Shown: piece by piece, positions 3,437 to 61,925 of the stretch
Position numbering within the stretch: the first letter of the stretch is position 1
How the letters are laid out: every line of letters starts with the position of its first letter
Assembly (NCBI RefSeq): GCF_016908325.1
Contig: NZ_JAFBDR010000005.1
Span: 124,001 to 188,000, forward strand
Length of the DNA stretch: 64,000 nucleotides
DNA from: Aquibacillus albus
GTDB lineage: Bacteria; Bacillota; Bacilli; Bacillales; Amphibacillaceae
Reading direction: 5' to 3'
The notes under the pieces: model-generated
What the model saw: only the letters and a program-made list of their open reading frames with translations
Database searches by the model: none
What the model was told of the DNA's origin: nothing
Translations under genes and position numbers: made by a program

Positions 3437-4450
3437 TTGACTTCATCATATAAACAGTTTCAACAGGTTCCGTTGTCAGTTCTAGACCTTGCTCCAGTTA
3501 TTGAAGGTGGAACAGCGGAAGAGGCGTATAAAAATAGTTTAGACTTAGCGCAGCATGTAGAAAAGTTAGGGTTTCACCGATATTGGCTAGCAGAGCACCA
3601 TAATATGCCTGGGATTGCTAGCTCGGCTACATCTGTCTTAATTGGACATATAGCAGGTGCCACCAAGTGTATTCGAGTTGGCTCAGGCGGAATCATGCTT
3701 CCAAACCACGCCCCATTAGTTATAGCGGAACAATTTGGAACACTTGAGTCGATCTATCCAGGAAGAATTGATCTTGGTCTAGGGCGTGCACCTGGTAGTG
3801 ATCAAGCAACGGCACGGGCTTTAAGACGAACGTTAAACAGTGGAGCAGATGATTTTCCGGAACAGCTGGAGGAACTTGAGAACTATTTTAGCAGAGATTC
3901 CTTTCAGCCTGTTAAAGCATATCCAGGTACAGGACTAAATATCCCTATTTGGTTACTCGGCTCCAGTGGATTTAGTGCACGTCTTGCAGCACAAAAAGGA
4001 TTACCGTTTGGATTTGCTAGTCACTTTTCACCGGATTATACATTGCCTGCTCTAAGGATTTACCGTGAAAACTTTGAACCTTCAGATGAATTGCAAGAAC
4101 CGTATGCGATGGTTGGTGTAAATATTGTTGCGGCAGATACACAGGAAAAAGCAGAATGGTTAGCAACTTCTCAACAGCAGCAATTTTTAAGCTTAACTAG
4201 AGGAAAACCAACGAAGTTAAAGCCGCCGTTAGATAATCTCGATCAAATATGGACACCTTATGAAAAAGCTGCAGTTGAAAGAACATTAAATTCAAGCTCT
4301 ACGATTGTCGGTGATCCAGAAACAGTTAAACAAAAACTGAAAAAATTCTTGAAGGAAACCGAAGCAGATGAGGTAATTATTCATTCGCAAATCTTTTACC
4401 ATGAAGATCGCCTGCGATCTTATGAAATTATTGCTGAAATGATGGATTAG
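3437..4450 (+). CDS. LLM class flavin-dependent oxidoreductase (luciferase-like)
   Basis: This is a bacterial luciferase-like flavin enzyme of the single-component type found in many Bacillus genomes (YwcH-like). Such proteins bind FMN in a TIM barrel and use flavin or oxygen to act on poorly known substrates. Family signatures are visible: [10 protein letters not shown] near residue 48, [18 protein letters not shown] near 85-102, and [12 protein letters not shown] near 111-122. Length is 337 residues. The best start is TTG at 3437, eight bases after AAAGGAG. The in-frame GTG nine bases earlier would overlap that site. It is monocistronic, with a strong terminator after it. The substrate is unknown. 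Confidence 0.8.
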
Positions 4451-4486
4451 AAATTAATTTTTATAGAAGATGTTTACAAAAAGTGC

Positions 4487-4526
4487 AAAAAAGTTGTCGT
4501 ACCAAGGGTAGTACGACAACTTTTTT
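4487..4526. terminator. Strong terminator
   Basis: A 15-bp stem, AAAAAGTTGTCGTAC and its complement, has an 8-base loop and ends in a T run. It follows the monooxygenase gene and faces the minus-strand zinc-ribbon gene, so it may serve both. Confidence 0.85.
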
Positions 4527-4582
4527 AATCTTTGCATTTAAACTGTCAACCACACTAATAGCTAAACTTTTTCATCGATTAA

Positions 4583-4711
4583 TTATTCAACATCAGAAAT
4601 ACGATTAATTGTATGCTCAGAGCATTCTGGGCAAACATCAAGTATATCGTATGGCCGCCCTTCTTTTTCCACTTCTTCTATTCGTCCACATACTTCACAG
4701 ATCCTTCGCAT
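4583..4711 (-). CDS. Small zinc-ribbon protein, 42 residues
   Basis: This short gene encodes MRRICEVCGRIEEVE and so on, with two Cys pairs, CEVC near residue 5 and CPEC near residue 27. The pattern is a compact zinc ribbon. An AGGAGGG site lies 7 bases before the ATG. It starts 18 bases after the end of the HMA-like gene and is probably the last gene of the formate dehydrogenase operon. I do not recognise a named family. It may be a structural partner or a metal-handling protein for the dehydrogenase, but that is inference from position only. Confidence 0.7.
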   Translation of the reverse strand: MRRICEVCGRIEEVEKEGRPYDILDVCPECSEHTINRISDVE

Positions 4712-4729
4712 AACGTATCCCTCCTATTT

Positions 4730-4951
4730 CTAAAAGTTGCCTTCTAATTTATTTGCTTCATACCCCAAGTCAATAATAGCCTGCTGAAAATCCATTAATG
4801 ATCCAGCTTCTTCGTGATAGGAGATGATTGCTTCTTCTGTTTGAACATTGATTTTAACGTTTCGCACTCCCCAAACATCGTGCAATGCTTTGCTGATTTT
4901 TTGCTCATCCTCTTTTTTAAGGTTAGGAATAGAAAGCTTGTGTGTAATCAT
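4730..4951 (-). CDS. HMA-like small protein lacking the metal-binding cysteines
   Basis: The 73-residue product has the beta-alpha-beta-beta-alpha-beta pattern of heavy-metal-associated (CopZ-like) domains: a first strand HKLSIPNL, a helix to about residue 27, a strand with GVRNVKINV, a strand AIISYH, a second helix and a final DLGYEA. The usual MxCxxC loop is replaced by IPNLKKED, and the protein has no cysteine. It therefore cannot bind copper in the usual way. It follows the DUF1641 gene and precedes the zinc-ribbon gene in the presumed formate dehydrogenase operon. Function is unknown; protein docking is one possibility. Confidence 0.65.
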   Translation of the reverse strand: MITHKLSIPNLKKEDEQKISKALHDVWGVRNVKINVQTEEAIISYHEEAGSLMDFQQAIIDLGYEANKLEGNF

Positions 4952-4989
4952 ATTATCACCGTCCTCAGTAAACTTCCGATTTTTATTTC

Positions 4990-5481
4990 TTAATGTACTT
5001 TATCATTTTTTAACCCTTCTCCCATTCCTTCCAGAAAATGAACCATCGTGCTAAGAGAGGTTTTTACATTAGGATCACGCATTGCTTTTAACATGCCAAA
5101 AGCACCAATTTGATTATTTTCCTCAGTACCTTCAGACGCTTTTTCTAACCCTTTGTTTAATCCTCCAAAAATTGCGTTTAATCGATCGGGATCCATCGAA
5201 GACAATAACTCAATACTGTTAAACATATTCCTTATTAGTTGATGCATGGAAGGTTGATTAAGCTGTTCCACTGCGATAACACCAACTTTTTCTTTCGTCC
5301 TTAAGAACCCTTTCACCATATCGAGCACACCGCTTTTATGAAGCTCTTCGAGGATAGTTAAACTATCCTCAATCGCTTCTCGATTATCTGCAATCTGTTT
5401 TAGAATTGCTCCTAAATCTTCTGATCTCTCTTCTTCTACACTACTCTGTTTTCTTTCAATTTGCGTGATTGCTCTCGCCAT
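4990..5481 (-). CDS. DUF1641 protein (YrhD/YjgD-like), formate dehydrogenase partner
   Basis: DUF1641 proteins are encoded beside cytosolic formate dehydrogenase-like genes in Bacilli (yjgC-yjgD and yrhE-yrhD in B. subtilis). Their biochemical role is not settled. The product is mostly helical, with charged heptad-like stretches and a GGLNKGLEKASEG segment near the middle. The gene overlaps the end of the dehydrogenase gene by 26 bases, which implies translational coupling. The chosen ATG at 5481 has a GAGGG site 8 bases upstream; a GTG 15 bases earlier lacks one. Length is 163 residues. Confidence 0.75.
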   Translation of the reverse strand: MARAITQIERKQSSVEEERSEDLGAILKQIADNREAIEDSLTILEELHKSGVLDMVKGFLRTKEKVGVIAVEQLNQPSMHQLIRNMFNSIELLSSMDPDRLNAIFGGLNKGLEKASEGTEENNQIGAFGMLKAMRDPNVKTSLSTMVHFLEGMGEGLKNDKVH

Positions 5482-8446
5482 CAATGTATCCCTCACTTCT
5501 TAAGGTTTCTGGAATAGGTGTAAAATCTGCTCGTTTCCATTTCTTCTCTATCTCAACACCAATATGCGGCTGTGGATTCCCAAAGCGATAGTTATGCAAT
5601 GGTAATGGAGATTCACCGGCATGTTCCAATAGCTCCATTTTCACGGATGCCTCTTTATAATTTGGTGTATGGGTATCTTTATCGTGATAACTACTTGTTA
5701 GCTTGTTAACAGCTTTTTCATTATCCGTTGTATTCATTGGTAAATATAATTCTTTACCTTTTACCGCATCTGTCACTAGTACTCGTACCTTCACCTTCCC
5801 ATATGGTGAGGTTAATCGCACGAGTGCACCTGTTTCTATGTTTCGTTCTTTAGCGAGCTCTTCAGAAACTTCTAGCCAAGGTCCCGGAACAAGATGATTA
5901 ATTCCTTCTGATTTTGCTGTCATGTTTCCTTCATGGAACTGCTCGAGTAATCGACCGTTATTTAAATGTAAATCAAATTCGTCACCGTACTCTTTAGGAG
6001 GTGTCCAGTCAACCTTGAACAGTCGAGCCTTGCCATCAACGAATTTAAACTTATCTTTATAAAGTAACGGTGTACTTTCTCCATTTGGCTGGACTGGCCA
6101 AATTTGACTGTCCCATCCTTCCATACGTTCATAGCTTACTCCTGCAAAGATTGGAGCTAGCTGAGCTGCTTCATCCATAATTTCCGATGGGTGTGTATAA
6201 TCCCAGTTTGCACCTAGCTTATTAGCGAAGTCACGGAATATCTCCCAATCTGGCTTACAATCTCCGAGTGGGTCAAGTACCTGGTAAAAGCGTTGAATTC
6301 TTCTTTCCGTATTCGTAAAGGTTCCTTCTTTTTCTAAACTAGGCGCTGCAGGTAATACAACATCTGCAAACTGTGCTGTCTTTGAAAAGAAAATGTCTTG
6401 AACTACAAAAAAGTCTAATTTTTCAAATGCTTCATGAACGTAGTTGATATTAGAGTCAACTAAGCCCATTTCTTCTCCAAACAAGTACATTCCCTTCACT
6501 TGACCATCTGTAATTGCTTCCACAATCTGGTGGTTATTTAAGCCTGGTTCTTTCGGAATTTTTGTACCCCACGCTTGTTCAAATCGTCCTCTAACCTCGT
6601 CATTTTCTACCGGCTCATAACCCGGAAGCCAATTCGGCATCGTGCCAAAGTCACTAGCACCTTGTACATTGTTATGCCCACGTAATGGGAAAGCCCCTGC
6701 ACCTGGTCTTCCAAAATTTCCTGTCACTAACAGTAAATTAGCGATAGAAGTACTCGTATCCGTTCCTCCAACATGCTGAGTAACACCCATTGCCCATAAA
6801 ACACAAGTACCATCTGATTCATGAATCATCTCTGCAACTTGAATCATCGTTTCTTTAGATAGGCCTGTCACTTCTTCTGCATATTCAAGCGAGAACTTTT
6901 CCAGAGAAGACGTAAATTCTTCTACATTATTAACACGTTCATTTAAAAATTCTTTGTCTTCCCAGCCTTGGTCCAAAATATATTTTGTAACTGCAGAAAT
7001 CCATACTAAATCTGTTCCCGGCTTTGGGTGAATATGGAGATCTGCTCTATCTGCTAATTCATGTTTTCTTAAATCAGCAACCAATAGCTTTTGATCGTTA
7101 AGCTTATGTGCACGCTTCACTCTCGTTGCCAAAACTGGATGAGACTCAGCAGGATTTGCCCCTACAACAATAATTAAACCTGCTTTTTTTATGTCTTCAA
7201 TCGTTCCAGAATCACCACCGATTCCAACGGTACGCATTAACCCAGCTGATGCAGGTGTTTGGCAATATCTTGAACAGTTGTCGACATTATTTGATTGAAA
7301 AATAGAGCGAGCTAGCTTTTGGAACAGGTAGTTTTCTTCATTCGTACATTTAGACGATGCAACGAAACCTAAGGCTTCAGGACCTTGTTTTTCTTTAATT
7401 TCGGTAAATTTTTCCGCCATAAGAGTGAGCGCTTCTTCCCATGTTGCTTCATAAAATTTGTCACCTTTACGAATTAGAGGCTTCGTTAACCGCTCTTCAC
7501 TATTAATAAAATCCCAACCAAATTTTCCTTTTACACACGTGGAAATACCATTAACAGGTGCATCCTCTGTCGGTTGAACCTTTAGAATATCTCGCCCTTT
7601 TGTCCAAACTTCAAAACTACAACCAACCCCACAGTATGTACACACCGTTTTTGTCTTTTTAATTCGATCTTCACGCATCGTTGCTTCCACATTCGATATC
7701 GCAAAAATTCCTTTATAACTTGGTTCGACTTCTTTGGTCAAATCGATCATTGGCTCAAGGACATTTTTTGACATTCCGGTCATATATCCCGCTTCCCCAA
7801 GCATGGACTTTTCCATTAAGGCATTACATGGACAAACTGTCACACAGTGTCCACACGATACACAAGATGATTCATCAATCGGAACATCATCATCCCAAAT
7901 CACTCTCGGTTGTTCTCTATCCCAATCAATACTTAATACTTCACTTACTTGAACATCTTGACATGCTTCTACACAAAGTCCACACAAAATGCATTGATCT
8001 GGTTCATAGCGATAAAATGGGTGCGTTGTATCTGGTGGATATGGTTTTGGTGTAAATTCATACTTTTGATGTTCAAGCTCTAAATATTCTGCAGTGTTAT
8101 GAACGACACAGTTACCATTGTTGTTGTCACACACCGTACAATAAAGTTCATGATTTTTTAATATTCGTGACATACCTTCTAACTGAGCTTCTTTGGCAAC
8201 ATCTGAAACAGAGTTCACCTCCATATCAGGCTCTGCTTCCGTTGCACATGCTCGTTTCAACTCCCCATTTACTTGAACATAGCAAGTATCACATGTTTGA
8301 ATGACACCAATTCCCAAGTCTGGTTGTGAGGAACAAATACCTGGAATGTACACGTTATTTTCTAATGCAGCCTCTAGAATGGATTGACCTTTTTTGGCTT
8401 TAATCTCATTGTCATTCACTTGGAAAGTAAAACTTTTTTCTTCCAT
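5456..8446 (-). CDS. Formate dehydrogenase-like molybdoenzyme, alpha subunit (YjgC/YrhE type)
   Basis: This cytosolic molybdopterin oxidoreductase belongs to the family annotated as formate dehydrogenase in Bacilli. Domains in order are a 2Fe-2S ferredoxin (Cys38, 52, 55, 67), a His-Cys3 [4Fe-4S] site (HELYC, CTVC, Cys113), two [4Fe-4S] ferredoxin motifs (from Cys152 and Cys195), a catalytic-domain cluster CTYCGVGC near 269, and the molybdopterin domains. The residue equivalent to the E. coli FDH-H selenocysteine is Cys395, followed by Gln where FDH-H has His; the conserved Arg lies in LRGHNNVQG. The start is ambiguous. The ATG at 8446 lies 12 bases after GAGGAG, while an ATG at 8458 directly abuts it. 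The DUF1641 gene overlaps its end. No fdhD or formate channel gene lies nearby. Confidence 0.85.
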   Translation of the reverse strand: MEEKSFTFQVNDNEIKAKKGQSILEAALENNVYIPGICSSQPDLGIGVIQTCDTCYVQVNGELKRACATEAEPDMEVNSVSDVAKEAQLEGMSRILKNHELYCTVCDNNNGNCVVHNTAEYLELEHQKYEFTPKPYPPDTTHPFYRYEPDQCILCGLCVEACQDVQVSEVLSIDWDREQPRVIWDDDVPIDESSCVSCGHCVTVCPCNALMEKSMLGEAGYMTGMSKNVLEPMIDLTKEVEPSYKGIFAISNVEATMREDRIKKTKTVCTYCGVGCSFEVWTKGRDILKVQPTEDAPVNGISTCVKGKFGWDFINSEERLTKPLIRKGDKFYEATWEEALTLMAEKFTEIKEKQGPEALGFVASSKCTNEENYLFQKLARSIFQSNNVDNCSRYCQTPASAGLMRTVGIGGDSGTIEDIKKAGLIIVVGANPAESHPVLATRVKRAHKLNDQKLLVADLRKHELADRADLHIHPKPGTDLVWISAVTKYILDQGWEDKEFLNERVNNVEEFTSSLEKFSLEYAEEVTGLSKETMIQVAEMIHESDGTCVLWAMGVTQHVGGTDTSTSIANLLLVTGNFGRPGAGAFPLRGHNNVQGASDFGTMPNWLPGYEPVENDEVRGRFEQAWGTKIPKEPGLNNHQIVEAITDGQVKGMYLFGEEMGLVDSNINYVHEAFEKLDFFVVQDIFFSKTAQFADVVLPAAPSLEKEGTFTNTERRIQRFYQVLDPLGDCKPDWEIFRDFANKLGANWDYTHPSEIMDEAAQLAPIFAGVSYERMEGWDSQIWPVQPNGESTPLLYKDKFKFVDGKARLFKVDWTPPKEYGDEFDLHLNNGRLLEQFHEGNMTAKSEGINHLVPGPWLEVSEELAKERNIETGALVRLTSPYGKVKVRVLVTDAVKGKELYLPMNTTDNEKAVNKLTSSYHDKDTHTPNYKEASVKMELLEHAGESPLPLHNYRFGNPQPHIGVEIEKKWKRADFTPIPETLRSEGYIDGESNHAN

Positions 8447-8599
8447 ATTGACAAACATCTCCTCAAAGCATAATTATTTACAGTATTTACTATAAAAAGA
8501 ATAATTATTACAAATGATTTTTAATCATTCATGTATAAAAAATTTTGTTAAAGGCCTTTAGGAGAGGGACTTTTAGTTGAGTTATACTTAATAACAAAA

Positions 8600-8626
8600 A
8601 AAAAGGACCAACTAATGATCCTTTTT
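8600..8626 (-). terminator. Terminator after OFA transporter gene
   Basis: Read on the minus strand, AAAAAGGA and TCCTTTTT form an 8-bp stem around an 11-base loop, followed by a further T run. It separates the transporter gene from the dehydrogenase operon. Confidence 0.65.
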
Positions 8627-8639
8627 GTTCGTTATTGTA

Positions 8640-9878
8640 TCAAGAGGATTGTTGAGCTCGTTGTTTTTTAATGCTTCCTTTCATAAATAGAGATACAACC
8701 AGTGCTGTTGCGAGTAAAAATGCAAAGACATAAAAAGTAAAGTTATAGCTTTCCGTTGTCTCACGAATATAGGCAACAGCCATAGGTCCGAGAATACCTG
8801 CTGTAGACCATGCTGTTAATAAGTACCCGTGAATCGCTCCTAATTGCTTTGTTCCAAACAAATCCCCTATAAAGGCGGGCAAAGATGCAAATCCCCCACC
8901 ATAAATTGTTAAAATGATAAAAATAATAATTTGAAATAATAGGGCATTTGTTGTATAGGGAAGAATTAAAAAGAAAATAAGCTGAACAACAAAAAATATA
9001 ATATACACATTTGCTCGTCCAATATAATCCGAAATGGCTGCCCAGCCTACTCTTCCTCCACCGTTAAAGAGCCCCATTATACCAACCATCGTTGCAGCTG
9101 CAATCGCAGTCATACCAACCTTTTCTTGGGCCATAGGTGAAGCAACAGATATTAACATAATACCAGCAGAAATGTTAATAAGCATCATCCACCACAACAT
9201 CCAAAATCTTCCTGTTTTTATTGCTTCATTGGCAGTCATTTGCGAAAGATCCTGTTTAACTCTCGTTTCGCCTTCCTCTGTTTTCTCCTTCATTGATGCT
9301 GGTTTCCAATCTTCAGGAGGCTTTACAATATAACTTGCACCAAGAGCCATTAATATAAAGTAACCAATTCCTAAAGAGTAGAAGGTAAATGGTATTCCAA
9401 CTGTACTCATTAACCATTCAGCTAAAGGACCTGCGATTAAGGCACCAGCACCAAAACCAAATACAGCCATACCAGTCGCTAGCCCACGCCGATCTGGAAA
9501 CCATTTAACGAGAGTAGATACCGGTGAAATATAGCCAATACCAAGCCCAATTCCACCTATTGCTCCATATGTGAAATAAAAACCATATAATGACTCAATA
9601 CTTAAAAAGAATCCCGCTCCAATCATTCCCCCACTAAATAAAACGGCCGCAACAAATGCAGAGATACGCGGTCCGTATTTTTCAACAAACCTTCCAAAAA
9701 TGGCTGTTGAAAGTCCTAGAAAGAAAATGGCAATCGTAAAAGAAAATGAAACACCTGTTGCGTCCCATCCATATGCATCTGATAAAGGCTCTTTAAATAC
9801 ACTATAAGCATAAATTGAACCAATTGATAAATGAATCGCAATCGCACTCAGTGCAATAAGCCAACGATTTTTCTTCAC
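8640..9878 (-). CDS. OFA-family MFS transporter (oxalate/formate antiporter-like)
   Basis: This 412-residue protein has about 12 membrane segments and the N-terminal pattern of the oxalate/formate antiporter family (IHLSIGSIYAYSVF, then GRFVEKYGPR between segments 2 and 3). The family exchanges or imports small carboxylates; B. subtilis and E. coli members have varied or unknown substrates. It lies just upstream of the formate dehydrogenase operon on the same strand, which suggests a role in formate or related acid traffic. A terminator separates the two units. The start is GTG, with AAAGG about 11 bases upstream. Confidence 0.75.
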   Translation of the reverse strand: MKKNRWLIALSAIAIHLSIGSIYAYSVFKEPLSDAYGWDATGVSFSFTIAIFFLGLSTAIFGRFVEKYGPRISAFVAAVLFSGGMIGAGFFLSIESLYGFYFTYGAIGGIGLGIGYISPVSTLVKWFPDRRGLATGMAVFGFGAGALIAGPLAEWLMSTVGIPFTFYSLGIGYFILMALGASYIVKPPEDWKPASMKEKTEEGETRVKQDLSQMTANEAIKTGRFWMLWWMMLINISAGIMLISVASPMAQEKVGMTAIAAATMVGIMGLFNGGGRVGWAAISDYIGRANVYIIFFVVQLIFFLILPYTTNALLFQIIIFIILTIYGGGFASLPAFIGDLFGTKQLGAIHGYLLTAWSTAGILGPMAVAYIRETTESYNFTFYVFAFLLATALVVSLFMKGSIKKQRAQQSS

Positions 9879-16671: not shown

Positions 16672-18354
16672 TTATTTTTTAAAATGATAAACAATTGACT
16701 CATAAGGACGTAAAGTTAATCCGTCCAGATTCGTTGATGAACCAGGATAATTGGATAACAATAAATCCTGTGAATAGCCCTCTAAATGAACAGAATTAGG
16801 TAGATAAAATGTTGTTCCGGTGCCATAAAAATTGTTAACAACGAGGATTTTTTCATCTTTCGTATTACGCATGTAGGCAAAAATTTGATCGTGATCAGGC
16901 ATTAGCAATTGATAATCCCCGTCTGTAATAATATCATACTTTTTCCTTATCCAGATAAGCTTTTTGTAATAATGGAAAATAGAATCTTCTTTCGACACAG
17001 CACTTTCAGCGTTAATCTTTTTATAATTTTTGGCAACTTTAATCCAAGGCTCTCCTGTTGTAAATCCAGCGTTCTCCTCTGCATTCCATTGGACTGGAGT
17101 TCTAGAATTGTCTCTAGATTTTTCTTTTAAAATAGTCAAAATCCCTTCCACAGACATGCCCTTTTCTTTCATGATTCGATACATATTTAATGACTCAACA
17201 TCTCTATATTCATCGATGGAATCAAATTTAGGATTCGTCATCCCAAACTCTTCACCTTGATAAATGTAAGGTGTGCCTTGCATGAGGTGAATCGTAGTTG
17301 CCAGCATTTTGGCAGATTCTTTATGGTATTCTTGGTCATCACCAAAACGTGAAACAACCCTTGGCTGATCATGGTTGCACCAAAACAAGGCATTCCATCC
17401 TCCACCTTCATGCATTTTTGATTGCCATGTTGATAGAATATCTTTTAATGCTAAAAAATCAAAATCAGCAGCTGTCCACTTCTCACCATTCGGATAATCT
17501 ACTTTTAAATGATGAAAATTGAATGTCATGTTTAACTCATTTCGATTAGGATTTGTATATTTAATACAGTTTTCAATCGTAGTCGAGGACATTTCTCCAA
17601 CCGTCATCATGTCATACTTAGAGAATACTTCTTGGTTCATTTCTTGAAAATATTCGTGAACCCGTGGACCATCTGTATAGAATTTTCGACCGTCACCAGG
17701 AGGGACAGAACCATCGTCATTCGGAAAGTGTTGATCCTTTGAAATTAAATTAATCACATCCAGCCGGAAACCATCCACACCTTTTTTAAGCCAATAATCC
17801 ATCATCTCATAAATTGCTTTTCGCACTTCTTCATTTTCCCAGTTTAGATCTGCTTGGGTAACATCAAACAAATGCAAATAATATTGTCCTGTTGTTTCAT
17901 CATATTTCCACGCTGATCCACCAAATTTTGATTGCCAATTTGTCGGCGGATTACTATCCTCTGCATCTTTCCAAATATAAAAATCACGATAAGGATTTTC
18001 TTTCGAGGCTTTTGACTTTTGAAACCACTCATGTTCTGTAGATGTATGGTTAACAACGATATCCATAATAATTTTTAAACCACGACTGTGTGATTCTTCT
18101 AAGAGTTGTTCAAAATCTTCCATCGATCCGTATTGCTCATATATATTATAATAATCACTGATGTCATAGCCGTTATCCTTTTGTGGTGAATCATAAATCG
18201 GTGTAAGCCACAGCACATCAACACCTAGTTCCTTTAAATAATCTAGCTTCTCAATAATGCCTTGTAAATCGCCAACCCCATTACCTGTCGTATCGTTAAA
18301 GCTTTTCGGATAAATCTGGTAGACAACAGCTTTTTTCCACCATGGTTGTGTCAT
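16672..18354 (-). CDS. treA: Trehalose-6-phosphate hydrolase, GH13
   Basis: The enzyme splits trehalose 6-phosphate made by the PTS into glucose and glucose 6-phosphate in the cytosol. At 560 residues it has the full GH13 set: DIVVNH near 98-103, DGFRLDVI with nucleophile Asp199, VGEMSS with acid/base Glu254, and WCNHDQPR with Asp329. The location between treP and treR supports trehalose-6-phosphate rather than isomaltose as substrate, though oligo-1,6-glucosidases are similar. There is no signal peptide. Confidence 0.92.
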   Translation of the reverse strand: MTQPWWKKAVVYQIYPKSFNDTTGNGVGDLQGIIEKLDYLKELGVDVLWLTPIYDSPQKDNGYDISDYYNIYEQYGSMEDFEQLLEESHSRGLKIIMDIVVNHTSTEHEWFQKSKASKENPYRDFYIWKDAEDSNPPTNWQSKFGGSAWKYDETTGQYYLHLFDVTQADLNWENEEVRKAIYEMMDYWLKKGVDGFRLDVINLISKDQHFPNDDGSVPPGDGRKFYTDGPRVHEYFQEMNQEVFSKYDMMTVGEMSSTTIENCIKYTNPNRNELNMTFNFHHLKVDYPNGEKWTAADFDFLALKDILSTWQSKMHEGGGWNALFWCNHDQPRVVSRFGDDQEYHKESAKMLATTIHLMQGTPYIYQGEEFGMTNPKFDSIDEYRDVESLNMYRIMKEKGMSVEGILTILKEKSRDNSRTPVQWNAEENAGFTTGEPWIKVAKNYKKINAESAVSKEDSIFHYYKKLIWIRKKYDIITDGDYQLLMPDHDQIFAYMRNTKDEKILVVNNFYGTGTTFYLPNSVHLEGYSQDLLLSNYPGSSTNLDGLTLRPYESIVYHFKK

Positions 18355-51697: not shown

Positions 51698-51744
51698 AAA
51701 AAAAAGAGAGCTACTCACTCCCTTAATCTACGGAAGCTGAGTAG
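51698..51744 (-). terminator. Terminator overlapping the end of gltB
   Basis: CTACTCA and TGAGTAG pair across a 20-base loop that includes the stop codon; a run of T follows on the minus strand. Confidence 0.65.
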
Positions 51745-53215
51745 TTCCCATTAAATATCGATCGCATTCTCTTGCCGCTTCTCTGCCTTCATTAATAGCC
51801 CATACAATTAAGCTTTGTCCTCGGCGCATATCACCAGCAGCAAATACACCATCCACTGATGTTTTATACTGCCCATAATCAGCTTTAATATTCGTTCGCT
51901 GATCAGTTTTTAAACCCATTTCCTTTATCAATTCCTGTTCAGGACCAGTAAAACCTATTGCTAACAAAACAAGTTGGGCAGGCCAAACTTTTTCTGTTCC
52001 TGGAAGTTCTTTTTTTATTCTATTTCCTTTTTCATCAATATATTGTTCTACATCAATTGTATGAACTTCTTTGACATGTCCATTTCCATCACCGACGAAC
52101 TTCTTAGTCAACACCGTATAGGCGCGAGGATCTTTGCCTAATACTGCTTCTGACTCTTTATGCCCATATTCCACACGATGAATAACAGGCCACTGTGGCC
52201 ATGGGTTTTCGTCTTCTTGTCGTTCTGATGGTTTTTTTTCATGATAGTCAAATTGTGTTAAGCTTTTACAACCATGACGAATGCTCGTTGCAAGACAATC
52301 TGTCCCAGTATCTCCTCCTCCAATAACGATTACATCTTTCCCTTTTGCAGATATATAATTTTCATCCTGAAGATTTGAATCCAACAAACTTTTCGTATTT
52401 GCATGAAGAAATTCCATCGCGAAATGAACACCTTTTAACTCTCTGCCATCTATCTTCAGATCACGATGCTTTGTAGCTCCTCCACAAAGTATAACGGCAT
52501 CAAAATCATCCCGAAGTTCGGATACAGGATAATCCTTGCCTATTTCGGTATTTGTCACGAAATTAATGCCTTCTTTTTCTAAAATATTAATACGACGCTC
52601 GACCACCTTATAAGGCAGTTTCATTTCTGGAATACCATATGTTAATAAACCACCAATCCGATCAGATCGCTCATAAACGGTAACATTGTGACCAGCTTTA
52701 TTTAGCTGAGCTGCTGCTGCCAACCCCGCTGGACCAGATCCAACTACTGCAACTAGTTTTTCTGTCCGTATTGTAGGTGGTTCTGGCTTCACCCAACCTT
52801 CATCGAAGCCCTTTTCAATAATGGAGCGCTCAATCGACCGAATCGCAACAGGCGGTTCATTAATGCCAAGTACACAAGCCCCTTCACAAGGTGCTGGACA
52901 AGCCATCCCCGTAAATTCAGGGAAGTTGTTCATTCTGTGCTCCCGTTCCAATGCTTGCTTCCACTGTCCTTGATAGACAAGGTCATTCCATTCTGGGATA
53001 AGGTGATAAACCGGACATCCAGATGTCATGCCACTTATATCTGTTCCCATATGACAGGTTGGAATGCCACAATCCATGCAACGTGCTCCCTGTTCTTTTG
53101 CCTCTTGTTCATCCATCGGAAGCTTATAATCGTTCCAATCCTTTGTTCGTTCTAAAGGATCACGTTCAGGTGTTGATTGTCGTTGATATTCTTTGAAACC
53201 TGTTGGCTTTCCCAT
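51728..53215 (-). CDS. gltB: Glutamate synthase small subunit
   Basis: The small subunit passes electrons from NADPH through FAD and Fe-S clusters to the large subunit. The 495-residue protein has the Cys-rich N-terminus (CMDCGIPTC near 46, then [15 protein letters not shown] near 100), an FAD motif [15 protein letters not shown] near 155, and an NADPH motif [11 protein letters not shown] near 298. It follows gltA with a 102-base gap. In B. subtilis this gene is gltB; in Proteobacteria it is gltD. Confidence 0.95.
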
Positions 53216-53317: not shown

Positions 53318-56300
53318 TTACTGAATGGCCTCTACAGCTTCTTTTCCTTTTTCAAAAGCAGTCATTGCCGCTTCTTTTTTCGTCAATCCACTAGCTTCTA
53401 ATTTATGAATAATTTGTCTCATTTCTAAATAATCTTTCGGTATCACCCGAACAAACTTAGGTAAAATAGAATCCCAATTATCCAGAACCTGCTGGCCGTT
53501 AATGCTCTTTGTATATTCCACGTGTTTTTCAATCATTTGATAAACTTCTTGGGCTTCCATCTCATCGTCAATCGATTGAAGGTGAACCAATTCTTTATTA
53601 CATTTTTCTCCGAACAAATCTGACTCATCAAGGACATATGCGACTCCCCCTGACATACCAGCTGCAAAGTTTTTCCCGGTTGGACCTAATACAACGACAC
53701 GCCCTCCAGTCATGTACTCACAACCATGATCACCAACACCTTCGACGACGACATTTGCGCCACTATTCCGAACACAGAATCGTTCACCCGCAATCCCATA
53801 AATATACGCTTCACCAGACGTTGCACCATAAAAAGCAACATTACCAATAATCGTATTTTTCGATGGATCGAATGATGATTTTGTTGATGGACGAGCAGTA
53901 ATTTTACCGCCCGATAAGCCTTTTCCAACGTAGTCATTGGCATCCCCAACAAGGTTTAGTGTTAATCCTTTAGGGATAAAAGCACCAAAGCTTTGTCCGG
54001 CAGAACCTCGTAGACGCAGACGAATCGTATCCTCCGGTAACCCCTCGCTACCATATCGCTTCGTAATTTCACTACCTAACATCGTGCTTGCCGCCCGATT
54101 TATATTTCGGATACCCAGGGATGCTTTTATTGGCTTTTTATTTTCAATTGCATCCATGCATAATGGAATAAGCTCTTGCTGGTCAAGTGTTTTATCTAAT
54201 CCATGGACTTGTTCGACTGTTTGATAACGACCAACATTTTTATCTACTTCTGGTTGATAAAGCAATTTAGATAAATCAACACCTTTTGCTTTCCAATGAT
54301 CAATCGCTTCTGCCTTTTCTAGAATATCGGTACGACCAATCATTTCATTGATCGTTCGGAAACCTAGTTCAGCCATTAGTTCTCTCACTTCTTTGGCAAT
54401 GAAAAGCATGAAATTCACGACATGGTCTGGTGTTCCTGTAAATTTTTTTCGTAGCTCTGGATCTTGCGTTGCCACCCCGACAGGACATGTATTTAAATGA
54501 CAAACACGCATCATCGTACAGCCCAATACAACTAATGGAGCCGTGGAAAAGCCATACTCTTCTGCACCTAATAATGTAGCAATGACAACATCTCTTCCTG
54601 TCATCATTTTTCCATCGGTTTCTACCACAATACGATCACGTAACTTGTTCATTAATAGGGTTTGATGGGTCTCCGCAAGTCCAATTTCCCAAGGCATTCC
54701 TGTATGCTTCAGGCTTGTTCGAGGAGCTGCACCTGTTCCACCATCATAACCACTGATTAATACGAGGTCTGCACGGCCTTTGGCTACCCCGGCTGCAATG
54801 GTACCAACGCCAACAGCAGATACCAATTTGACACTAATGCGAGCCTTTTGATTTGCATTCTTTAGGTTGAAAATTAATTCGGCCAAATCTTCAATCGAGT
54901 ATATATCATGATGTGGTGGTGGTGATATTAGTCCTACTCCGGGAGTGGATCCTCTAACCTCGGCAATCCATGGATATACTTTCTTCCCAGGAAGATGTCC
55001 ACCTTCTCCAGGCTTTGCACCTTGGGCAACTTTAATTTGAATTTCATCTGCGTTCATCAAATAGTGACTCGTCACACCGAAACGACCAGATGCTACCTGC
55101 TTAATGGAGCTACGGCGTAAATCACCATTTTCATCACGGGTAAAACGGTTAGGGTCTTCCCCACCTTCCCCTGAATTACTTTTTCCACCAATTCGGTTCA
55201 TCGCTATCGCAAGTGATTCATGGGCTTCTTCACTGATCGAACCATAGGACATCGCACCTGTCTTGAATCTTTTACAAATACTCTCAATTGATTCGACTTC
55301 TTCAATTGGAATGGATTCCCTTTTCTTAAAAGAAAGAAGTCCCCGTAACGATTGTAAGTTTTTATCCGTATTCGTAATCATATTGGAATACTGCTTGAAT
55401 ACGTCATAATTATTCGTACGACAAGCATGCTGTAGCAAATGAATCGTATGTGGATTGTACTGGTGGTCTTCTCCATTTTGCCGCCATTGGAAATCATCAC
55501 CTGATTCTAAACCTTTTACTCTACCGCGATCACGATTATAGGCAATTTTATGTCGCATCATCACCTCTTGGAAAATGGTATCTAGTCCAATGCCTCCTAG
55601 ACGTGAGGCTGTTCTTGTAAAATATTTATCGATAACATCAGACCGGATGCCAACTGCTTCAAAAATTTGAGCTCCTCGGTAGCTTTGAATTGTAGAAATC
55701 CCCATTTTTGATAACACTTTGATAACACCATCGGTCGCTGATTGAATATAAGTATCTACCGCTTCATCTATGGAAGTGTCACGGATATCGCCCATCTCGA
55801 TTAATCCTTCCAACGTACGGAAGGCCAAATATGGGTTAATTCCCTCGGCACCATAGCCTAAAAGTGTTGCAAAGTGATGCACTTGACGAGCTTCCCCAGT
55901 CTCGATCAGGATGCTAACTTTTGTCCGCATTCCTTTTCGAATCAAATGATGGTGCAAACCAGATACAGCTAGCAATGCTGGTATTGCTGCTTTCTTAGTA
56001 TTCATGCCTCGATCAGATAAAATCAATAACGTCGTACCTTCAATTATTGCTTCATCCGCTTTTGCAAACAGGTCATCTAACACATGCTCCATATCTTGAT
56101 CCTTTTTCACATCAAATAAAAGCGACAATGTTTTCGCTCGGAAACCGTCCAAATCATTATGGCGTAATGTTTCTAATTGCTGATTGTTAAGTATTGGTGT
56201 TTTCAAACGAATATGTCGACAGCTTTCCGGTTCTGGCTTGACTAAGTTTCCTTCTTTACCAATCGTCGTCTCTACTGCCGTGACAACCTCTTCCCTGATC

Positions 56301-57913
56301 GCATCAATTGGTGGATTTGTCACCTGTGCAAACAGCTGCTTAAAATAGTTGTATAGAAGCTCCGGACGTTTTGATAAAACAGCGAGTGGAGAATCATACC
56401 CCATCGATCCTACCGGGTCCTTTTTATCGGTGACCATTGGCTTTAAAATCTTATTCAATTCTTCCGTCGTATAACCAAATGCCAGTTGGTGTTCAAGCAA
56501 CTGATCGGTAGATAAAATTGGGTGACTACCTTCACGAGTTTCTACGTCTTCCAAATTGATTTTGTGCTTTGATAGCCACTCTTGATAAGGCTTCTCTTTG
56601 GCAATTTGACTTTTAATCTCTTCGTCCGGAATTACTTCTCCTTTTTCTAAATCAACAAGAAGCATTTTACCTGGTTGTAGTCTATCTTTATATTCGACGT
56701 CCTCTGGTAAAATATCGAGTGCACCTACTTCAGACCCCAATACCATCATGCCATCCTTTGTTACATAATAGCGTGCAGGTCGTAGTCCATTACGATCGAG
56801 ACACGCTCCGATTTGATGACCATTGGTATACATGATTGCAGCAGGGCCATCCCAAGGCTCCATTAATGTACTGTGATATTCATAAAATGCTCGTCTTTCC
56901 TCATCCATGTGCCGATCATTCACCCACGGCTCTGGTATCATCATCATTGCAGTATGTGCTAGCGAACGTCCAGATTGATAAAGAAATTCAAAGCAATTAT
57001 CAAACATCGTTGAATCACTGCCATCTGTATCTATAACCGGTAAAACTTTTTCGAGTTGTTCTTTATTAAAAGAATCTGATTGACAAAGTTCTTCACGTGC
57101 TCGCATCCAATTGACATTACCACGGATAGTATTAAATTCACCATTGTGGGCAATGAAGCGATTTGGTTGTGCTCGTTCCCAGCTTGGAAAAGTATTCGTA
57201 CTAAATCGAGAGTGAACAATCGCAAGTGCTGATTTAAAGGCTGGATTATTCAAGTCAATGTAAAATGAGTCTAACTGCTCTGGTATCAACATGCCCTTAT
57301 ATACAATCGTCGATGTTGACAAACTACAGATGTAGGTGTTCTGATCATCTTCTATTCCTTCTAGACCCTGTAACTTGCTCTCTGCTAACTTTCGGATAAT
57401 ATATAGCTTTCTTTCAAATTCTTCCCGAGTGTTAATATCATTGGACGGGGTAATAAAAACCTGACGAATATATGGTTTTACCTTCTTGGCATAGTCACCA
57501 AGAAAGGCATCATTCACCGGAACAGTACGCCAGCCGATTACTTGTTGTCCTTCTTGTTCAATAATACTTTGTAATTTTTGCTCACTTTTTTTCCTGATCT
57601 TCGGGTCTTGTGGTAGAAAAACCATTCCTACGCCATACTTTCCTTCATCTGGAAGATCAATGTCTAAATCCTGACATTTATCCAGAAAAAAAGTATGCGG
57701 AATTTGTGTAAGGATCCCAGCACCATCTCCAGTGCTTGTATCTGCAGATTGTCCACCTCGATGCTCTAAATTACAAAGAATTGTCACCGCATGCTGAACA
57801 ATATCATTCGATCTTTTTCCATTTATGTTCGCAATCATCCCAATCCCGCATGCTTCATGCTCATTTTCTGGATGATATAATCCTTGAGGAGCTGGATATC
57901 CATAACGTCTCAT
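53318..57913 (-). CDS. gltA: Glutamate synthase large subunit
   Basis: This makes glutamate from glutamine and 2-oxoglutarate. At 1,531 residues it has the four expected domains. The catalytic Cys22 is in HEACGIGM and implies removal of a 21-residue propeptide. The glutaminase domain runs to about residue 430. The synthase domain binds FMN and a [3Fe-4S] cluster with Cys in [17 protein letters not shown]-terminal beta helix contains the repeats [15 protein letters not shown] and [12 protein letters not shown]. It is downstream of ectB on the same strand. The regulator gltC is absent here. Confidence 0.96.
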
Positions 57914-57950
57914 AACAACATCCCTTCTCTCGTTCTGTTATTGAATAGAA

Positions 57951-58000
57951 GGGACTGTCCCCGACACGCGGACAAATGTCCACGGACGGGGTCAGACCCC
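57951..58000. repeat. Triple-palindrome repeat between ectB and gltA
   Basis: Three short palindromes follow in 50 bases: GGGACTGTCCC, GGACAAATGTCC and GGGGTCAGACCCC. The last ends one base from the ectB stop codon. The motif GGGGTCAGACCCC recurs in inverted form at 61244-61256. This has the look of a REP-type mobile palindrome; transcripts of ectB would fold it into a terminator-like hairpin. Confidence 0.7.
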
Positions 58001-58001
58001 T

Positions 58002-59282
58002 TTATTTATTTTTTAATACTTCTTTAATGCTTTCTTCTAAGATAGCTAGTCCTTCGTCTAATGCTTTGTCGTCAATGTTTAGTGGGGGCATTACTTTAAT
58101 TACTTGATCATCAATTCCTGCAGTTTCTAGAATTAAGCCTTTTTCAAATGCGGAGCAGCAGATAGCATCTGCTAATCCATCTACATCACAAACTAATCCT
58201 TGCATTAAGCCTCTTCCCCGTACACTTCCATTAAGCTTTGGATATTTTTCCGCAAGAGATTTTAAAAATTCTTGAACTTTTTCTCCCTTTTTATTTACTT
58301 CATTTGTTAACGTGTCATCCTCCCAAAAACTTAAAGCTTCTGTGGCCGTAACAAATGCTAAATTGTTCCCTCTAAAAGTACCGTTATGTTCACCAGGATC
58401 CCAAATGTCATGTTCTGGCTTAATTAATGTCAATGCAAATGGAAGTCCATAACCCCCGATTGATTTAGATAAACAAATAATATCCGGCTTTATTCCTGCT
58501 GGTTCAAAGCTAAAGAACGGTCCTGTCCGACCAACACCAGCTTGAATATCATCAACAATTAAAAAGATTTCCAACTTTTTGCAAAGAGCTTCCAACCGTT
58601 TTAACCAATCAAAGCTAGAGACATTAATACCGCCCTCTCCTTGAACGGTTTCTAGAATTATTGCGGCTGGCTTCGAAACACCACTACCTTTATCCTCCAA
58701 AAAACGTTCGATATATTGAACGGAATCGGTTTGATTATCAATAAAATTGTCATATGGCATCACAACTGTATTATGCAGAGAAACACCTGCGCCATGTCTT
58801 TTCGATTGGTTACCAGTAATGGACAAGGAACCTAATGTCATCCCATGAAACGCATTTGTAAAGCTCATAACGGTTTCACGGCCAGTTACTTTTCTTGCTA
58901 ATTTCAAAGCACTTTCCACTGAATTCGTTCCAGTAGGACCAGGGAACATTACCTTATACTCCATATTCCTTGGACTTAAAATTGTACTTTGTAATTTTTC
59001 AATAAATTCTTCCTTTGCTGTCGTTGCCATATCCAAGCCATGAGTAACACCATCACTCTCTATATAAGCCATTAATTTTTCTTTCATTTTCGGATGGTTA
59101 TGTCCATAATTTAGCGCCCCTGCGCCAGCGAAGAAATCGATAAACTCATTTCCCTCTCCATCCCAAAGCTTATATCCTTGGGCTTTTGTAAATATAGTCG
59201 GGAAACTACGGCAATAACTTCTTACTTCAGATTCATGTTGTTTAAAAACATCTAAGTTTGTTTTTTCTCCTATCGATGCCAA
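58002..59282 (-). CDS. ectB: Diaminobutyrate--2-oxoglutarate aminotransferase EctB
   Basis: EctB makes L-2,4-diaminobutyrate from aspartate semialdehyde with glutamate as amino donor. The 426-residue protein is a class III PLP aminotransferase. Markers are [39 protein letters not shown], the PLP partner Asp in [11 protein letters not shown] and the Lys in [10 protein letters not shown]. It is 26 bases after ectA. The gene for EctC, ectoine synthase, would be expected next, but gltA follows instead. Confidence 0.93.
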
Positions 59283-59308
59283 TTTTTTACTCCTCCTTGT
59301 CTTTATTA

Positions 59309-59803
59309 TTAATGAATAGGCCCTATTTGATACGTTTGTTCAGGCTCATGGTTTTCATTTGGAAATACCTCTGGAGATATAGATTCTATCTTTTTCATTT
59401 CCGTCTCAAAATTTTCAGCTAACTTTTTAAACAGAGCTTGTGAAGCTTTATTTGATGGAGAAATTGTTGTTTCCAGATATTTAACATTTGAAAGTTCTTC
59501 TCTGCTAAGCAGTTCTTGTAATAGTGAGGAAGCAAGTCCCTTCCCCCTTTGACTTTCATCTACAGCCACTTGCCATATAAATAAAGTATTTTGCTTTTCA
59601 GGAAGTAAAAATGCAGAGACAAACCCTACAATTTCCCCCTGATGTTCAGCAACAATACACGTATTTTTAAAATATTTGGACAGAATCAGGTAATAATATG
59701 CAGAATTCAAATCCAGAACTTGCGTTTTGCGTATTAGTCTCCATATATTTGATCCATCTTCTAATGTTGGTTTACGAAGTTCAACTGATTTAGTCAGTAA
59801 CAG
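59309..59803 (-). CDS. ectA: Diaminobutyrate acetyltransferase EctA, probable CTG start
   Basis: EctA acetylates diaminobutyrate to N-gamma-acetyl-diaminobutyrate, the ectoine precursor. It is a GNAT protein, with [29 protein letters not shown], and the acetyl-CoA loop [16 protein letters not shown] near residue 88. There is no ATG near the N-terminus. A GGGAGG site lies 7 bases before a CTG at 59803 (then TTACTGACT), making CTG the best start; a TTG at 59818 lacks any site. Length is about 164 residues. It is divergent from lysC. Confidence 0.82.
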
Positions 59804-59964
59804 GTTAATTCCTCCCAACTTTTTTAAAAAATTGTTATAAAAACTTTAAAGTTATCAAATATTTTTCACCAAAAAATTGAATTTAATCCTACAAATTCGC
59901 AAATATTATAAATAACATGTTAGTTAATTTTATGAAATGACCCGAAGGAAGGTGGGATCTGACC

Positions 59965-61203
59965 ATGGGAATTATTGTTCAAAAATATGGAGGTACTTCC
60001 GTTGGTAATGTTAAGAAAATTAAACAAGTAGCAGAACGAGTAAAAAAAACGATTCAAGACGGGCAGCAAGTTATTGTCGTTGTGTCAGCAATGGGGGATA
60101 CAACAGACGAATTAGTTTCATTAATGCATGAAGTAACAGATCATCCACCTCGACGAGAAATGGATATGATGTTAACAACAGGAGAGCAAATTTCAATCGC
60201 CCTTTTATCCACCGTCTTACAGGAATTAAATGTTCCTTCTATCTCCTATACTGGATGGCAAGCTGGAATTGAAACCGAAGCAGTATTTGGTAATGCGAGA
60301 ATTTTGGATATTAATACAGATCGAATCATTGAATCATTAAATGAAGAAAAAGTGGTAATTGTTGCAGGATTCCAAGGGCTAACTGAAAAAGAAGAAATTG
60401 CAACATTAGGAAGAGGAGGTTCAGATACATCTGCTGTAGCTCTTGCAGCTGCGGTTAATGCTGATCATTGTGAGATTAATACTGATGTTGATGGTGTATA
60501 TAGCACAGATCCTCGAATCGTTCCGAATGCTAGAAAACTTCCTACGATTTCTCATGATGAAATGTTAGAAATGGCTGCTTTAGGAGCATCTGTTATTCAC
60601 CCAAGAGCAGTAGAGCTTGCAAAAGTACATGGTGTCAGAATTATGATCCGATCTAGTTTTTCAGACATTGAAGGAACTCTAATTAAGGAGGCAAATAATA
60701 TGGAAAAAGAAATGGTCGTTAGTGGGGTTGCTTATGACACAGACATCATAAAAATAGAGGTATTAAAAATGCCTAATCAAGTTGGCATAACATCGAATTT
60801 ATTTGATTATATTGCCAAAGAAAATATTAATGTTGACATGATTGTTTTAAGTGAACACGGAACAGATACGTTTAATGTTGCATTCACCGTTAATAATCAA
60901 GAAGCAGAGCGTACAATTAAAATATTAAATGATCATAAAGATGAATTGAAATTTGAGGATGCTTTTTATCAAGACGGTGTTGCAAAAGTATCAATAATCG
61001 GTTCTGGTATGGTTACCAACCCAGGCGTTGCTGCAAAAATGTTTACTGTGTTAAGCGATAAGAATATACCAATAAAAATGATTAACACTTCTGAAATTAA
61101 AGTTTCCTGTGTTATCCCCGAAAAAGAAGGGAAAAAAGCAGTTAAACTGTTACATAGCGCATATGATTTAGACACAGAAAATGAAACCATGGTAGAAATC
61201 TAA
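59965..61203 (+). CDS. lysC: Aspartokinase (LysC type), with internal start for the small subunit
   Basis: Aspartokinase makes aspartyl phosphate, the first step toward lysine, threonine, methionine and also diaminobutyrate. The 412-residue protein begins GIIVQKYGGTSVGNV and contains GRGGSDTSAVALAAA near 152 and NTDVDGVYSTDPR near 172; two ACT domains lie after 260. At codon 246 an in-frame ATG (60700) has AAGGAGG 8 bases upstream, as in B. subtilis lysC, where the beta subunit starts within the alpha gene. It divides an intergenic region with ectA. No lysine riboswitch is seen. Confidence 0.93.
   Translation: MGIIVQKYGGTSVGNVKKIKQVAERVKKTIQDGQQVIVVVSAMGDTTDELVSLMHEVTDHPPRREMDMMLTTGEQISIALLSTVLQELNVPSISYTGWQAGIETEAVFGNARILDINTDRIIESLNEEKVVIVAGFQGLTEKEEIATLGRGGSDTSAVALAAAVNADHCEINTDVDGVYSTDPRIVPNARKLPTISHDEMLEMAALGASVIHPRAVELAKVHGVRIMIRSSFSDIEGTLIKEANNMEKEMVVSGVAYDTDIIKIEVLKMPNQVGITSNLFDYIAKENINVDMIVLSEHGTDTFNVAFTVNNQEAERTIKILNDHKDELKFEDAFYQDGVAKVSIIGSGMVTNPGVAAKMFTVLSDKNIPIKMINTSEIKVSCVIPEKEGKKAVKLLHSAYDLDTENETMVEI
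60685..60702 (+). promoter_or_regulatory. Internal ribosome site and start within lysC
   Basis: AAGGAGG at 60685-60691 is followed 8 bases later by ATG at 60700, in frame with lysC (codon 246). Translation would give a 167-residue protein containing only the two ACT domains. This decides a second start in the same gene. Confidence 0.85.
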
Positions 61204-61242
61204 CACATACGCTATCACATTCCATATCCATTTATTTACAGG

Positions 61243-61258
61243 AGGGGTCTGACCCCTT
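61243..61258. repeat. Short palindromic repeat after lysC
   Basis: AGGGGTCTGACCCCTT is the inverted form of the element at 57988-58000. It lies one base beyond the stop codon of the RNase HI-like gene and is preceded by AGGAGG-like bases. It may act as a terminator for both converging genes. Confidence 0.7.
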
Positions 61259-61259
61259 C

Positions 61260-61925
61260 TTATTTATTTTGTTCTATCTCACTTGTGCTCGAGATTTCAG
61301 TGTCCTTCAATGCTTGTGAGGCTAAATGGTCTGCTTCTCTATTCTTTTTTCTAGAGACTACTTCGTATATCGGATCAATTCCTAGTTGGTCCAGCTTCTT
61401 TTCAATTCGATCTGCCCATTTATTTAATTCTTCTTCCACACACGGCCATTCGCCATCTAACTGATTAATCACAACTTGGGAATCACCTATAAAGGTAACT
61501 GGTAAATGATGAACCCCTAAAAGCTCCAACTCCTGTAAACTAAGATGAAGTGCGGCATACTCTGCTTCATTATTTGTGTTAAGCTCATCTACTTGAGCGT
61601 TTTTACGAAGCCGCAATGATTTGTTATTTTGCTCATAATAAATCGCACAGCCCAAGCCTGATTTTTTTGTTTCTAAATCAAAACCACCATCAAAATAAAC
61701 GGTCACATTATGTGGTTCAGTTTGAATACCCTCCAAATATTTGTTTAGCTCCTTCGTCGTCCATGTATTCTCACGTCTATCAATGAATGTTATATGTTTG
61801 ACACGACCAGTCTTTTCCAAGTCTTCAGCAATAACTAATGCTTCCCCTGCTCGCATTTCATCCGAGCTAAACGTTGTTTCTAACCCTTTTCTTGTTTTAT
61901 AGGTAACTTCTATTCTGACATTCAT
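61260..61925 (-). CDS. RNase HI-like protein
   Basis: A cytosolic RNase H fold protein of 221 residues. The acidic active-site residues are visible: Asp in YFDGGFDLE near 85, Glu in TNNEAEYAAL near 126, Asp in IGDSQVVINQ near 156, and Asp in READHLASQ near 206. Residues 1-70 form a separate N-terminal domain resembling YpeP/YpdQ-type proteins. It may digest RNA-DNA hybrids. AGGAGGG lies upstream of the ATG. Confidence 0.8.
   Translation of the reverse strand: MNVRIEVTYKTRKGLETTFSSDEMRAGEALVIAEDLEKTGRVKHITFIDRRENTWTTKELNKYLEGIQTEPHNVTVYFDGGFDLETKKSGLGCAIYYEQNNKSLRLRKNAQVDELNTNNEAEYAALHLSLQELELLGVHHLPVTFIGDSQVVINQLDGEWPCVEEELNKWADRIEKKLDQLGIDPIYEVVSRKKNREADHLASQALKDTEISSTSEIEQNK

Follow-up and report, generated by a model that had tools for sequence, protein, structure and literature searches.

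A second ectAB set without ectC, linked to aspartokinase and glutamate synthase genes in Aquibacillus albus and other Bacilli, as a probable precursor supply for ectoine

The stretch of Aquibacillus albus DNA analyzed here (the window, 64 kb, C5:124001-188000 of the assembly coded G000) carries ectA and ectB without an ectC beside them, which raises the question of what the pair makes and for what. The preliminary description, drawn from the window alone, held that the pathway as encoded would stop at N-gamma-acetyl-diaminobutyrate, and that either ectC lies elsewhere or the lineage accumulates or uses this intermediate. We have searched the whole genome for ectC, followed the gene arrangement into other genomes, and compared its phylogeny with that of the ordinary ectoine genes.

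The ectAB pair and the complete ectABC of the same genome

Both reading frames are open and intact (58002-59803, minus strand), and in the profile search their products lie over the curated cut-offs of the EctA and EctB models, TIGR02406 and TIGR02407 (Table 1). EctA also matches the solved EctA structures 6sjy and 6sk1 (E about 4e-41), and EctB retains the SKS motif, including the PLP lysine; in P. lautus EctB, the PLP-binding residue is Lys274 (PMC6915088). The start of ectA given in the list of open reading frames, a TTG at 59818, overlaps the GGGAGG ribosome site, and the likely start, as placed by the preliminary description, is a CTG at 59803-59801, seven bases 3' of that site. In a DNA alignment of the seven loci with this arrangement (described below), the position holds CTG in six and TTG in one, and G363, G540, and G541 have an ATG two codons upstream.

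As previously described, ectA faces lysC, and on the other side a repeat (57951-58000) and then gltA come after ectB. The lack of an adjacent ectC also stands, as a PF06339 search of the assembly (4.41 Mb, 61 contigs, 99.99% complete) placed none within the 64-kb window. The same search, which had been proposed as the check, found a single open ectC on another contig (C7:125755-126132, 128 amino acids [aa], 199 bits, E 7.8e-59). It is the only match at an E value of ≤0.001 across the whole assembly, the count being made genome-wide for G000 alone, and it belongs to a locus that encodes a complete EctA, EctB, and EctC set (L012, 6843-9141). This is the genomic half of what the preliminary description had named as speaking against a truncated pathway, the other half being ectoine in the cells. 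The proposed stop at N-gamma-acetyl-diaminobutyrate therefore describes the window but not the genome: because an intact ectC sits in the ectABC on C7, the ectoine pathway, judged by gene content, would not halt in the cell for want of an enzyme. A lineage without ectC is likewise rejected by this one intact gene. The window proteins are 47% (EctA) and 64 to 65% (EctB) identical to those of the C7 cluster, making the window pair a diverged extra copy beside a complete ectABC. The first reading missed that ectAB, lysC, and gltAB are all extra copies and that the same combination is found in other genomes.

Table 1. Features of the ectAB region of the window and of the complete ectABC of the same genome
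Feature	Coordinates	Strand	Evidence or remark
gltB, glutamate synthase small subunit (presumed)	51728..53215	-	Pfam oxidoreductase and Fer4_20 domains
gltA (second copy), glutamate synthase large subunit	53318..57913	-	NF008730, 1758.5 bits (cut-off 1047)
REP-like repeat between ectB and gltA	57951..58000	-	palindrome GGGGTCTGACCCC at 57988-58000
ectB (second copy), diaminobutyrate--2-oxoglutarate transaminase	58002..59282	-	TTG start; TIGR02407, 684.3 bits (cut-off 552.2)
ectA (second copy), L-2,4-diaminobutyrate acetyltransferase	59309..59803	-	likely CTG start; TIGR02406, 206.6 bits (cut-off 120.6)
ectA-lysC intergenic region	59804..59964	.	161 bp between starts; no Rfam match; GGGAGG at 59811-59816 (-)
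lysC, monofunctional aspartokinase	59965..61203	+	TIGR00656, 448 bits (cut-off 402)
Second copy of palindrome, after lysC	61244..61256	+	terminator-like hairpin
Complete ectABC, contig C7, locus L012	ectA 6843-7373; ectB 7456-8727; ectC 8755-9141		

Distribution of the lysC-ectAB module

A lysC divergent from ectAB was found in seven genomes of six genera and three families: that of the window (G000), Aquibacillus halophilus (G009), G349, G363, G540, G541, and G552. The divergent orientation is kept in all seven modules and none contains ectC, and every one of these genomes has a separate complete ectABC (L012, L044, L108, L109, L130, L132, and L134). In A. halophilus (NZ_WJNG01000002.1) the order is that of the window, with lysC on one side and ectA-ectB-gltA-gltB on the other.

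Within the family of the window, 119 of 159 genomes have an EctB match at an E value of ≤1e-120, only two of them of the module type (100 and 79% identity), and the next-best EctB is 67% identical. Two EctA matches at ≤1e-30 occur in 7 of 397 genomes of an even sample of the order, namely four modules (G000, G009, G349, and G363) and three instances of another case discussed below (G225, G309, and G463). The corresponding counts are 4 of 29 genomes in the family of G363, all modules (G363, G540, G541, and G552), and 1 of 7 in that of G349; in a sample of the class, only the genome of the window, among 398, has two EctA matches at ≤1e-45. E-value thresholds of this kind could miss a very divergent module. 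Where a genome had one EctA match, ectC was adjacent in 31 of the 32 loci inspected. Two strict peptide patterns scanned over the genome contigs recovered one relative, and in the plasmid collection 55 records match the window EctA, all at less than 60% identity (37 to 51% among the 20 matches listed).

A separate observation concerns G541 (L131), where a 395-bp direct repeat (6495-6889 and 17097-17490, 95% identical) brackets the whole module from ectB to gltA. Parts of this repeat match the Bacillaceae-1 RNA (RF01690), of which the locus of the close relative G540 (L133) has no match.

Phylogeny and origin

In a tree of joined EctA and EctB (51 rows, midpoint root, with one long row, L182, of unsure place), the seven module EctAB sets form one clade (bootstrap 100, SH-aLRT 99). 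A 100/100 branch separates them, together with 19 sets from other families and orders, from all seven partner ectABC copies. Module LysC also forms a single clade (100/100, 22 rows) on a long stem, and G552 is the deepest member in both trees. Since EctAB and LysC each make up one clade, apart from the ectABC of their hosts, the trees fit joint inheritance of the two and transfer between families, and not a recent duplication. Of 37 sampled genomes of its family, only its own matches the window LysC at an E value of ≤1e-120, versus 13 of 24 genomes from other families.

The second gltA falls in a separate GOGAT clade (SH-aLRT 100, quick tree of 31 rows) that also holds an unlinked copy of G349, the second copy of G011, and the sole GOGAT of three genomes of family f25. 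In the gltA trees, which were built without the housekeeping copies of G009 and G011, the six linked copies are not one clade, as G009 groups with the unlinked copy of G349 and G000 with G011. This opposes a simple cotransfer of gltA with EctAB, and gltAB could have been added to the module on several occasions. G011 is of the same genus as the window; its second gltAB is 85 and 87% identical (L217, G011:C22, 6958-13059), with neither ectAB nor lysC within the 20 kb read.

Glutamate synthase and aspartate-semialdehyde dehydrogenase genes

The window gltA begins 88 bp beyond the ectB stop. The frame after it we take, from its position, to be the small subunit gene gltB; frames 60 to 87% identical to it come after gltA in other loci. 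The other gltA of the genome, on contig C16, is 61% identical to that of the window, and a gene that by eye is of the LysR type adjoins it (L220).

gltAB lies within 2.2 kb of the ectAB-lysC block in six of the seven modules. It directly adjoins the block in four, with gaps of 88 (G000), 136 (G009), 152 (G541), and 60 (G540) bp, while a YdiU/SelO-family gene lies in the 2165-bp gap of G363, and the 1435-bp gap between ectB and gltA in G552 contains an aspartate-semialdehyde dehydrogenase gene and a 70-aa frame. In G349, gltAB is on a different contig from the module. The side also varies: G000, G009, and G552 carry gltAB downstream of ectB, and in the other three linked modules (G363, G540, and G541) it lies on the lysC side. 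At an E value of ≤1e-200, all seven module genomes have two GOGATs, while among 21 other, hand-picked genomes one has two, 17 have one, and 3 have none.

The asd gene of G552 (L129, G552:C2:1-14000, 4319-5356; TIGR01296, 513.7 bits, cut-off 324.2) is the only one in the seven modules, and its product is 61% identical to the Asd of the window's genome. By family assignment, the G552 locus encodes in one place the complete putative route from aspartate to N-gamma-acetyl-diaminobutyrate. Nearly all ect clusters are reported to lack asd, with Kytococcus as the exception (PMC5924519). The module of G552 lies near the end of a 320657-bp contig in a two-contig assembly, and this contig is perhaps a second replicon.

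Aspartokinase and regulation

Besides the module LysC, the genome of the window contains two other aspartokinase matches (39 and 29% identical to it), the first of them encoded after an asd gene. The module LysC proteins share 59% identity with 13 other LysC proteins over the catalytic part and 41% over the ACT part, versus 68 and 56% for the 13 among themselves. The residue aligned to Gln298 of the Corynebacterium glutamicum aspartokinase is Leu in six of seven module proteins, G552 retaining Gln, and Gln in all 13 others; Q298G is among the changes reported to deregulate this enzyme fully (PMC10464499). Positions 301 and 308 also differ in the module proteins, but the others vary there too, and most of the 18 feedback positions read fail to separate the two groups. 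The module LysC may be less feedback inhibited. The lysine riboswitch was below threshold around lysC in all seven module loci, with no match even at an E value of ≤5 in window positions 57800-61500, and lysine regulation of the module lysC was rejected on its absence from the seven loci.

GlnR/TnrA-, sigB-, and sigma-A-like consensus patterns gave no match in the ectA-lysC regions of the seven genomes, and a promoter scan of window positions 57700-61400 called 7 sites versus 12.7 in shuffles. Between ectB and gltA no terminator-like site was called on the minus strand, whereas one was called after lysC (61240-61260), so that ectA-ectB-gltA-gltB may form one transcript. The only two copies in the window of the palindrome GGGGTC(A/T)GACCCC sit just outside ectB and lysC; as the element is common (56 copies, very unevenly spread, in the 516 kb of the genome examined), this placement is possibly due to chance.

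Function of the module

We consider it probable that the module is an acquired precursor supply for ectoine, whose product is closed by the EctC of the separate ectABC. LysC would form aspartyl phosphate, the housekeeping Asd (contig C14) would convert it to aspartate semialdehyde, and EctB and EctA would carry this to N-gamma-acetyl-diaminobutyrate, with the second glutamate synthase renewing the glutamate spent by EctB. EctC from the other locus would then close the ring, and the end product would still be ectoine. The module would thereby cover the expensive early steps, namely aspartate activation, glutamate-dependent transamination, acetylation, and glutamate renewal. This presumes that the module enzymes have the activities named by their families, that both loci are expressed together, and that the module product flows to ectoine. 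Such a supply could matter, as aspartate kinase is reported as the main limit on ectoine yield in recombinant Escherichia coli (PMC2562377) and EctB as controlling flux in the pathway (PMC5924519). With a Km of EctC for its substrate of 5 to 11 mM, more precursor should drive the existing enzyme, and the inhibition of P. lautus EctC at high substrate (or product), with a Ki of 47 mM, would set a limit to this push (PMC6344544).

We count for precursor supply the ectABC and the second GOGAT present in all module genomes and the asd in the G552 module, and also, for the lysC loci, the missing riboswitch and the Gln-to-Leu change in six of seven. Ectoine production by Spiribacter salinus from separated ect genes (PMC5818414) is a precedent. 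Against it, the absence of ectC from every module would be just as expected if the acetyl compound were the desired product. The gltA history, which is not that of EctAB, the gltAB copies that are unlinked in G349 and without ectAB in G011, and the Gln kept by the LysC of G552 also speak against it.

That N-gamma-acetyl-diaminobutyrate is itself the end product, a second compatible solute perhaps for moderate salt or for the time before EctC induction, seems unlikely to us. No module has ectC, even though one carries the whole aspartate route, and the acetyl compound is reported to give an EctC-deficient Chromohalobacter protection similar to that by ectoine (PMC5924519). Yet EctC is available for the module product in each of the seven genomes, and no export or storage gene was recognized beside the module among the part of the neighbors profiled. 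In its full form, this proposal would have a horizontally spread module of halophilic Bacilli (feedback-relaxed LysC, EctA, EctB, and glutamate synthase, with Asd in one genome) make the compound as a natural solute alongside ectoine, the balance being set by expression of the module versus that of EctC, which we regard as rather unlikely. How much of it wild-type producers contain remains to be seen, according to the same review (PMC5924519).

Use of diaminobutyrate or its acetyl form for something else, such as a peptide, a siderophore, or nitrogen storage, is quite improbable. The module's own sources of aspartate semialdehyde and glutamate would suit it, as would its separate history from the ectABC of the hosts, but no biosynthetic cluster was recognized around the seven modules (by eye, and for L129, L131, and L133 against eight reference proteins only), and the retention of EctA with EctB points to the acetyl compound.

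The ratio of nonsynonymous to synonymous change (dN/dS) was calculated for two pairs, G541/G540 and G000/G349 (the second close to silent-site saturation), and gave 0.140 and 0.138 for ectA, 0.046 and 0.051 for ectB, and 0.054 and 0.139 for lysC. Values of 0.05 to 0.14 in two pairs indicate that the three genes are under purifying selection. The canonical ectB gave 0.019 (G541/G540) and 0.025 (G000/G011), so the module ectB evolves faster. A redundant or decaying duplicate of ectABC after loss of ectC is therefore highly improbable, and we reject it on dN/dS, with the open frames and the identical ectC-less order in seven genomes forming one clade also against it, even if such a loss from an otherwise ordinary cluster does occur (G542 compared with G466) and with the reservation that constraint on the module ectB is weaker than on the canonical gene.

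Relation to known ectoine gene arrangements

Like canonical ectABC clusters, the module has EctA and EctB over the ectoine-family cut-offs and the usual order of ectA before ectB; unlike them, it lacks ectC, is additional to an existing ectABC, and is linked to lysC and gltAB. In itself, a separation of ectAB from ectC has been described before. Most Marinobacter and Thioalkalimicrobium are reported to have ectAB together and ectC elsewhere, and Spiribacter salinus makes ectoine from separated genes (PMC5818414), described as ectAC and ectB in the abstract of that paper and as ectAB with a separate ectC in the review PMC5924519. Those split genes, as reported, resemble the module in having ectC in the genome and, possibly, an adjoining aspartokinase gene, but their ectAB is part of a scattered set, whereas the module is additional to ectABC, belongs to a different clade, occurs in Bacilli, and has glutamate synthase linked. 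What is new is an extra set with its own supply genes.

A parallel for lysC is Ask_Ect, reported mainly from Alpha- and Gammaproteobacteria (PMC5924519), which the module resembles by an extra aspartokinase gene beside the ect genes in all seven cases and perhaps by changed feedback residues. The module LysC differs in lying beside ectAB only, divergent from ectA. The parts of PMC5924519 consulted describe solitary ectC, several complete clusters, and rearranged ect genes, from a survey that started from EctC, and those of PMC10203224 report ectABC in the Aquibacillus genomes studied and mention no second ectAB. The lysC-ectAB-gltAB module was not found in the open-license literature on second ectA or ectB copies or on ectA, ectB, gltB, and aspartate kinase together.

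The second ectAB of genus g101 (G225, G309, and G463; L101, L103, and L105) is similar in having no adjacent ectC and a separate ectABC in the genome. It differs from the module in having no lysC or gltAB alongside and in grouping with the ectABC of the same genomes (100/100), by which it is most likely a duplicate internal to that lineage. Frames resembling proBA and typA, named by eye, adjoin it.

Two more loci deserve mention. G542 has a single EctA match and an ordinary-type ectAB (L138, G542:C15:11001-22000, 4958-7225), and conserved flanking genes; the place taken by ectC in its congener G466 (L242, 5611-8028) is occupied by a 69-aa membrane-like frame. A search of 0.65 Mb of the 3.3-Mb genome of G542 gave no ectC. 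Accumulation or use of the acetyl compound, as suggested for the window, would seem to fit G542 better. In G055 (L045, G055:C3, 3792-8626), the second EctB match is an interrupted frame that comes after frames resembling peptidase, amidohydrolase, and aldehyde dehydrogenase genes; by eye, the group looks like an ectoine degradation cluster.

Implications

Judged from its genes, the organism of the window can make ectoine. Because EctC is absent from the module, sets of this kind escape surveys that start from EctC. A. halophilus offers named, growable material for the question that the 2018 review put on the level of N-gamma-acetyl-diaminobutyrate in wild-type producers. In these Bacilli, the first two ectoine enzymes travel without EctC and in the company of enzymes for their supply, and the module may represent a natural solution to the aspartokinase limit met in ectoine engineering.
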